64,000 nucleotides of DNA, taken from Mixia osmundae IAM 14324. Its lineage: Eukaryota; Basidiomycota; Mixiomycetes; Mixiales; Mixiaceae. The stretch covers positions 249,616 to 313,615 of the forward strand of contig NW_014575562.1 in the NCBI RefSeq assembly GCF_000708205.1, read 5' to 3'. Below, piece after piece: positions 56,033 to 57,509 of this stretch. The notes under the pieces were generated by a model, which saw only the letters and a list, made by a program, of their open reading frames with translations, was not told the origin of the DNA and made no database searches. Position numbers and translations under genes: made by a program. Positions within the stretch are counted from its first letter, which is position 1, and each line of letters begins with the position of its first letter.

Positions 56033-57509
56033 ATGGGTTCGTTGGAAAAATACACAAAATTAGAAAAGGTAAGTCCTGCTTGCGTGTTACACCATCAGCA
56101 TACAGAGCTGACGAGCATGCATTTGCCGCTCTTCCTTCCTTCTGTCGTGCTTTCGCTCGTGATGCGATGTTGACGCTGACTTTACAATACCAACTGATGC
56201 TTCTTCACTTTCGCATACAACCGACGACGACGACCGTCCGGCGCTCACTATCCTGCTCATACCCACCTATGGACTGCCTAGGTCGGAGAAGGAACATATG
56301 GCGTCGTCAGTTCATTCAACACGACTAGGATAGCCGCGAGGCTGACGCATATGGTCAGGTCTACCGCGCCAAGCACAATGAGACCGGCGAGATTGTAGCG
56401 CTCAAGAAGATCAGGCTGAGCGAAGAAGATGAAGGCGTCCCTTCTACTGCTATCCGAGAGATCTCGCTCCTCAAAGAGATGAAAGATCCCAATATCGTCA
56501 GGTACGCGTCGACATCCTGTCAAATCATGCGGGTGCTCACGCATGCGGATCAGGCTACTCGATATCGATCATCGCGACCTCAAGCTCTACCTCGTCTTCG
56601 AGTTCCTGGACATGGATCTGAAGAAGTACATGGACACCATTGGCGATGGCGACGGTATGGGACCCGATATCGTTCAGGCAAGGAACTCTTGCGATCAGCT
56701 GCTCTGAAGCTGATAACAAGTCGTACTGGCAGAACTTCTCCTATCAGCTCCTGCGCGGTGTTCACTACCTCCATGCTCACCGAATCCTCCACCGCGATCT
56801 CAAGCCTCAAAACCTGTTGATAGACAAGGAAGGCAACCTCAAGCTTGCCGACTTTGGTCTTGCACGCGCTTTCGGCATTCCCTTGCGTACGTACACACAT
56901 GAGGTATGCCCGTGACTTCTCACCTGCTATGAAGTGCTGACAGACAGTGACAGATTGTCACACTTTGGTACCGCTCGCCAGAAGTCTTGCTGGGCTCGCG
57001 TCACTATTCGACCGGAGTCGACCAGGCGAGTCATCGTCCTGGTGGCATCAAAAGCTCGCTGACAGCAGGGTGGGCAGTGGTCCGTTGGCTGCATCATGGC
57101 GGAAATGATCCAGCGTGGACCTCTCTTCCCAGGTCAGTCATGCAATCGACAAACCTGCAAATGCTCACGAGCGAGTAGGCGATTCCGAAATTGATCTCAT
57201 CTTCCGAGTTGCGAGACTGCTAGGCACGCCCAATGAGCAAGTATGGCCCGGTGTATCAACATTGCCCGACTTCAAATCTACCTTTCCTCAATGGAAGCCA
57301 AAGGTGCTGCGCGATCAGATCACCAACTCGACAGCAGAGTCCGCAGATCTCATCCAGGCATGTCTTTGCGGCACTATGGAGAGTGCGCTGATCGTGAAAG
57401 ACAGAAAATGCTCATGTACGATCCGGCAAAGCGTATTTCGGCAAAGGCAGCGCTCCAGCATCCCTACTTCAGCGCCGAGGGATCATCTACTCAGAGTCAA
57501 AAGCTATAG
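56033..57509 (+). CDS. CDC28: Cyclin-dependent kinase 1 (PSTAIRE kinase)
   Basis: Master cell-cycle kinase. Starts [12 protein letters not shown]; spliced landmarks: [89 protein letters not shown] with the activating Thr, [53 protein letters not shown] and [20 protein letters not shown]. Eight introns: 56069-56281 (213 nt), 56306-56358, 56502-56553, 56678-56732 (GC), 56904-56953, 57026-57077 (GC), 57133-57178 and 57358-57404 (GC). A 15-residue tail after HPYF is slightly longer than in yeast. Confidence 0.93.
56678..56732 (+). other. GC-AG intron 4 of CDK1
   Basis: 55 nt, gcaagg ... ggcag, with a branch-like gctgataac. It joins GPDIVQ to [12 protein letters not shown] (gttcag) six bases upstream would also keep phase but would delete two residues that CDK1 proteins keep, so GC is preferred. 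Confidence 0.7.
57026..57077 (+). other. GC-AG intron 6 of CDK1
   Basis: 52 nt, gcgagt ... gggcag, with a CTGAC branch site. It joins YSTGVDQ to WSVGCIM, matching the invariant VDxWSxGCI of CDKs. The only in-phase GT alternative removes VDQ. Confidence 0.75.
57358..57404 (+). other. GC-AG intron 8 of CDK1
   Basis: 47 nt, gcatgt ... gacag, with CTGAT. It joins ADLIQ to [10 protein letters not shown] in phase 0. The GT two bases inside gives a stop codon, so a GC donor is needed. Confidence 0.8.

Follow-up and report, generated by a model that had tools for sequence, protein, structure and literature searches.

Three predicted GC-AG introns in the CDK1 gene of the fern fungus Mixia osmundae and an elevated estimate of the GC-AG share in its sampled genome

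The fern fungus Mixia osmundae (strain IAM 14324) is placed in the Mixiomycetes, within the Pucciniomycotina of the Basidiomycota. The window analyzed here, a stretch of 64,000 nucleotides from contig NW_014575562.1, carries on its forward strand a gene for a Cdc2-type cyclin-dependent kinase, CDK1, at positions 56033..57509 (all positions are those of the window unless a contig is named). The gene runs from ATG to stop in nine exons and encodes a full-length product of 302 amino acids, which has 68 to 79% identity to 12 fungal CDK1 proteins and carries the conserved motifs of a Cdc2/CDK1 kinase. With its GC introns removed, CDK1 scored 572.2 bits against a profile of other fungal CDK1s. The eight-intron model is a manual reading that was checked by script, and when it was rebuilt from the DNA, all eight introns ended in AG.

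Introns 1 (56069..56281, GTAAGT, 213 bases), 2 (56306..56358, GTCAGT, 53 bases), 3 (56502..56553, GTACGC, 52 bases), 5 (56904..56953, GTATGC, 50 bases), and 7 (57133..57178, GTCAGT, 46 bases) are GT-AG introns on the forward strand; the first two follow the manual model. Three others on the same strand start with GC and end with AG: intron 4 (56678..56732, 55 bases, CAG/GCAAGG, with the slash marking the exon-intron boundary), intron 6 (57026..57077, 52 bases, CAG/GCGAGT), and intron 8 (57358..57404, 47 bases, CAG/GCATGT). A preliminary description of this DNA had read the same three donors after CAG, and the rebuilt model confirmed both its coordinates and its readings. The minor-type donor is AT/GT-ATCC, and none of the donors GCAAGG, GCGAGT, and GCATGT is of this U12 type. 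For the Basidiomycota as a whole, minor introns are described as lacking convincing support (PMC10639083).

The preliminary description also held that the GC donors are needed to keep conserved kinase residues. Alternative GT-AG and GC-AG pairs, with donors from −70 to +60 and acceptors from −70 to +70 relative to the proposed ends, were scored against the CDK1 profile (37 pairs for intron 4, 78 for intron 6, and 138 for intron 8). The best GT choice for intron 4 (donor GTTCAG, acceptor AACAAG) reached 562.8 bits, and a GT choice that keeps the proposed acceptor reached 561.3 bits with the loss of VQ. For intron 6, the best GT choice (donor GTCGAC) reached 564.2 bits and dropped an Asp conserved in 13 of 13 alignment rows, and for intron 8 the best GT choice (donor GTCCGC) reached 553.6 bits. 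The best GT alternatives fit the family 8 to 19 bits worse than the GC donors. GC leads GT clearly at intron 8 but only moderately, by 8 to 9 bits, at introns 4 and 6.

That small margin is what speaks for the reading that the GC calls are wrong, that CDK1 introns 4, 6, and 8 use nearby GT donors, and that the conserved residues differ in Mixia, since the GT alternatives for introns 4 and 6 are in frame. However, the best GT donors for these two introns lack the G at +5 that is present in 91% of GT donors in the genome sample described below, one of them removes the invariant Asp, and the GC junctions of two other genes are matched by published Mixia proteins. Other details bear on the individual calls. 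Against intron 4, one homologue (P0007) lacks two residues right beside the intron, so that a small deletion there is not absurd. Against intron 6, the residue preceding it is Q where relatives carry M, V, or T, and the gene-finder score gained just 0.6 from it. Taking these points together, we regard the use of GT donors at all three introns as very improbable, and the GC donors of CDK1 appear to be real as far as can be judged from the DNA and its homologues. Of 7,995 scored CDK1 relatives, the 120 listed included no Mixia protein, although other Mixia proteins are present in the same database; the published Mixia CDK1 model may be absent, broken, or mis-spliced.

Published proteins were available for comparison at GC junctions elsewhere. 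An amino acid transporter gene on the reverse strand of the window (49212-51424) has 97% identity over its length to E5Q_01887 of M. osmundae IAM 14324, and its GC-AG intron (49808..49859, reverse strand, AGG/GCAAGT, 52 bases) gives a junction that is present in the published protein. A tRNA methyltransferase gene (C1:376645 and following) has 98% identity to Mixia E5Q_04207. All four GC junctions compared were contained in the published proteins (one in E5Q_01887 and three in E5Q_04207), and RNA-seq was used in building the published gene set, as described with it (PMC3376729), which mentions 42,706,936 single reads; the two proteins thereby lend indirect support to splicing at GC donors. Seven further GC junctions, picked from 52 for conserved-looking proteins, all aligned through solved homologues: one each in ribosomal protein L26, an Rpd3/Clr6-type histone deacetylase, AP-1 mu, an Aurora kinase, and MidA/NDUFAF7, and two in AP-2 alpha. 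Six of the seven alignments were gap-free at the junction, with a one-residue gap at one AP-2 alpha junction, and the MidA/NDUFAF7 match was weak (24.7 bits). These searches used the GC-spliced version only and serve as consistency checks.

The frequency of GC-AG introns was estimated on a sample of the genome assembly (13,508,641 bases, 19 contigs). The sample, 335,582 bases in 24 sequences, consisted of the whole window together with C1:300001-500000 and 22 short loci. Two loci (L008 and L032) were dropped as duplicates; an identical pair (L038/L044) was kept, so that 3,011 bases without a GC intron count twice. Contigs C8 and C17 share five match pairs at a constant offset of 623,140, and the three locus pairs that were compared are identical; the final 133 kb of C8 and the initial 133 kb of C17 resemble either an assembly overlap left unmerged or a duplication.

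Introns were called with a purpose-written gene finder that combines codon-pair scores with donor, acceptor, branch, and length terms. Trained on GT donors only, it called 478 introns with a median length of 52. When each of the 15 non-GT dinucleotides was given a prior of 1%, it called 496 introns, of which 445 began with GT and 34 with GC; the next-highest dinucleotide had 4. With a 7% prior on one non-GT dinucleotide at a time, GC accounted for 52 of 506 introns with a score gain of 201, and the 14 control dinucleotides accounted for 6 to 28 introns each with gains of −62 to 28. A part of the 52 GC calls must be background, because GC also offers more candidate sites (1270, versus 318 to 981 for the controls). 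Per 1000 candidates, calls numbered 40.9 for GC versus 14 to 30 for the controls. GGCAAG occurs often in Mixia coding DNA, where GGC and AAG are the commonest Gly and Lys codons, and this gives GC more chances than the control dinucleotides have.

GC and GT introns were also compared at matched stringency, defined as the score lost upon forbidding the site with an equal cut-off for both. At a cut-off of 4, there were 19 GC introns versus 0 to 2 for each of the 14 control dinucleotides, and 183 GT introns passed, for a GC share of 19/202. The share GC/(GC+GT) at cut-offs of 2, 3, and 5 was 31/307, 25/259, and 10/135, respectively. Most of the 52 GC introns would disrupt the reading frame if left in place: 37 have a length not divisible by three, 31 contain an in-frame stop, and 5 can be read through. 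In the genes that could be checked, the gene finder missed one intron, placed one GT donor wrongly, and merged CDK1 introns 1 and 2.

Two other decodings were not used for the estimate, and the first of them counts against it. With the donor flanks hidden and a 1% prior, GC accounted for 4 of 486 introns and AG for 8, so that GC was not singled out, and with all 16 dinucleotides set equal, the 390 introns included 131 with GT, 42 with AG, 25 each with CA and TG, and 16 with GC. The coding signal by itself does not fix a donor at single-base resolution, so this test lacks power; we read the outcome as a loss of the ability to place donors (GT itself fell to a third) that lends no independent support. 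The estimate of the share thus rests on the flanks, the reading frame, and the homology checks. A floating prior gave 68 GC introns of 517 and was not taken as an estimate because false calls feed the prior.

A word search was also set aside. Across the whole genome, the word CAGGNAAGT with ACAG 34 to 50 bases on had 57 matches, with N being C in 43, A in 6, T in 5, and G in 3 (counted by hand from the rows, with one pair of matches nested). The use of this count as a sign of GC dominance was withdrawn, because CAGGCAAGT is also common as coding sequence: it occurred 15 times as such in the sample, versus 4, 10, and 4 times for the words with A, G, and T. Only 2 of those 15 coding words carry ACAG at 34 to 50 bases. 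In the sample, 10 of 50 words of the form [AC]AGGCAAG[CT] were called as donors, versus 6 of 12 of the same words with T, which indicates that T is still the better donor base.

The counts that were retained, from 34/496 to 52/506 and 19/202 at matched stringency, all lie well above approximately 1%, and they support an estimated GC-AG share of approximately 7 to 10% of introns in the sampled Mixia genome (roughly 1 in 10 to 15).

Against this background, the occurrence of three GC introns in one gene can be assessed. The probability that at least three of eight introns are GC is 0.0001 at a share of 1%, 0.012 at 6.5%, and 0.038 at 10%. Of 107 intron-bearing genes in the sample, 68 had no GC intron, 29 had one, 7 had two, and 3, including CDK1, had three, where 0.7 to 2.1 genes with three or more would be expected at shares of 6.5 to 10%. 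The gene at C1:434483 and following is the third gene with three predicted GC introns (9 GT and 3 GC by the gene finder). CDK1 lies in the tail of the distribution, is not an outlier, and is ordinary for the Mixia genome. The earlier view that three GC introns in a housekeeping gene are unusual accordingly holds against a 1% background but fails against the genome in which the gene resides. That CDK1 holds three of them can be traced to its exon ends, since CAG, the setting that tolerates C at +2, ends five of the eight CDK1 exons that precede an intron.

It had also been proposed that the GC donors of CDK1 reflect regulated splicing, with selection keeping weak donors that allow regulation by intron retention or alternative donors. 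GC donors in worms and mammals have been tied to regulated splicing (PMC2490688), and retention would have large consequences here: compared with 572.2 bits for the spliced product, retention of introns 4, 6, and 8 gave 197.3, 385.8, and 527.0 bits, respectively, and the kinase would be destroyed if intron 4 or intron 6 stayed in. However, GC introns occur in 39 of the 107 intron-bearing genes, including those encoding ribosomal protein L26, a histone deacetylase, AP-1/AP-2 adaptor subunits, and a tRNA methyltransferase, and CDK1 does not stand out among them. GC and GT introns are moreover equal in median length (52), in G+C content (0.537), and in mean place in the gene. The analysis gave regulated splicing of CDK1 no support, and we consider selection for it highly unlikely.

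What sets GC introns apart is the sequence around the donor. Compared with the 445 GT introns, the 34 GC introns more often had G at −1 (0.88 versus 0.46), A at −2 (0.76 versus 0.44), A at +3 (0.82 versus 0.40), and G at +5 (1.00 versus 0.91); GC donors were closer than GT donors to the consensus [AC]AG/GNRAGT, with stronger −1 G, −2 A, +3 A, +4 A, and +5 G. This difference is overstated to some degree, since calling a GC donor demands strong flanks. Sorted by the number of matching flank positions out of seven, the ratio of GT to GC introns was 162:2 at four matches, 142:13 at five, 72:22 at six, and 8:14 at seven, so that with all seven positions matched GT was in the minority despite its advantage in the prior. 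The proposal of a relaxed donor position 2 in this lineage is supported, with GC making up an estimated 7 to 10% of introns in the sample, but the relaxation is not free, because GC is nearly confined to strong flanks.

These observations can be set against the pairing of the donor with U1 snRNA. The complement of the U1 snRNA 5' end is ACUUACCUG, and the usual U1 start is ACTTACCTG. Pairing of the flanks with the U1 5' end would compensate for the mismatch at +2, and where the flanks are strong, a change of T to C at +2 would then be nearly neutral. We think it probable that CDK1 introns 4, 6, and 8 are U2-type introns with C in the second position, in which strong U1 pairing offsets the C and to which TpA avoidance possibly contributes the supply. 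U2-type splicing with compensation by the flanks is how GC-AG introns are generally understood (PMC2490688).

The spliceosomal RNA genes were searched for in the whole genome. U6 is present with the canonical ACAGAGA, and U2 is present. A second, weaker U2-like match lies at C8:730908-731102 on the reverse strand, with the good U2 gene approximately 1.1 kb away and in the opposite orientation; the score of this weaker match, 44.6 bits, is just under the family cut-off of 46. No U1 gene was found in the whole genome with the Rfam model, the ATACTTNCCTG word (15 places screened), loop patterns, or an Sm-site pattern; the U1 gene may have diverged, may be absent from the assembly, or may have escaped these searches. 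This result, together with the excess of GC over GT at fully matched flanks, leaves some room for a lineage with a changed splicing machine, for example through a U1 snRNA altered opposite +2 so as to pair with C, or through an altered protein factor that accepts C. Such a change fits poorly with a genome in which GT still supplies about nine in ten donors, in which the flanks of GC donors match the usual U1 complement, and in which U6 is canonical. In addition, four ATACTTGCCTG words were found at donor-like or coding places, without the U1 loop motif searched for. We judge a changed machine to be quite unlikely and favor flank compensation by an ordinary one.

Flank compensation would explain where GC donors are tolerated, and avoidance of the dinucleotide TpA may bear on how they arise. 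In the 335,582-base sample, the odds of TpA were 0.60 in intergenic DNA, 0.54 in introns, and 0.55 in coding sequence. GpC was overrepresented in the same sample, at 1.32, 1.28, and 1.22, respectively. Genome-wide avoidance of TpA would convert GTA to GCA in donors with strong flanks. It would equally favor GTC and GTG donors, which are common in Mixia. An A at +3 was present in 38 of the 52 GC donors, and the GC share was 38/223 among introns with +3 A versus 14/283 among those without it. In a joint comparison of flank positions, +3 A was the strongest predictor of GC (coefficient 2.40), but its interval overlapped the intervals for −1 G, +4 A, and +5 G, so that this comparison does not tell TpA avoidance apart from U1 pairing. 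We give TpA avoidance as the supplier of GC donors about one chance in three.

The composition of the GT donors themselves is also of note. C occupies +3 in 27% of them, and C or T occupies +6 in 91%; the commonest hexamer is GTCAGT (52/438), and GTAAGT occurs only 16 times. A at +3 and A at +4 were negatively linked in GT donors (odds ratio of 0.30). An upper limit on U1 pairing is not claimed from this, and the negative link may stem from donor selection plus TpA avoidance. Elsewhere, mutual aversion between exon-side and intron-side consensus bases has been reported in 30 species (PMC10599564).

A broader and more tentative reading is that the donor consensus of Mixia is being rewritten by mutational or selective TpA avoidance, which would leave GTA by way of +3 (to GTC or GTG) or +2 (to GCA), so that GC would by now be the rule, and GT the exception, wherever the flanks match fully. 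We hold this reading to be possible yet doubtful.

Like GC-AG U2-type introns elsewhere, the GC introns of Mixia start with GC, end with AG, and have GT-like lengths, and their donors are otherwise nearer the consensus, in agreement with the compensation described previously (PMC2490688). A difference from the usual GC-AG subtype is that GC outnumbers GT in Mixia once the flank matches at all seven positions. The mean GC-AG share in a survey of 130 fungal genomes was 1.009% of introns (PMC7072748), so that by that figure the estimated share in Mixia is approximately 7 to 10 times the fungal mean. Much higher shares have been reported for algae: 39.6% in Aureococcus anophagefferens, 22.2% in Micromonas pusilla, and 7.7% in Chlorella sp. 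(PMC3033335). Mixia resembles these algae in its genome-wide excess, and its share is comparable to that of Chlorella. The GC-AG-rich algae have the highest G+C contents of the 61 species in that work (69.5% in Aureococcus and 65.9% in Micromonas), whereas that of the Mixia window is only 54.5%, which makes base composition alone a weaker explanation than in algae. For mammals, a scenario has been proposed in which GC donors become fixed neutrally where the splice-site context is strong (Churbanov et al. 2008, PMC2490688). Mixia is like this scenario in having GC donors where the remaining site is strong; it differs in that mammals have <1% GC donors, and the link to TpA is our own addition.

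A GC-AG-rich genome is thus a known kind, represented by algae, and Mixia is a fungal case, for which no published report of the GC-AG share was found in the open-licence literature. A share near 7 to 10% at a G+C content of only 54.5% would make it useful for studying why introns almost always carry T as their second base. In practice, gene finders restricted to GT donors would garble many Mixia genes, so that the finding amounts to an annotation warning and a moderate evolutionary case. If the donor consensus is indeed being rewritten by TpA avoidance, Mixia would represent a fungal lineage heading to a mixed GT/GC donor with its splicing machine unchanged and would allow the constraints on the second intron base to be tested.
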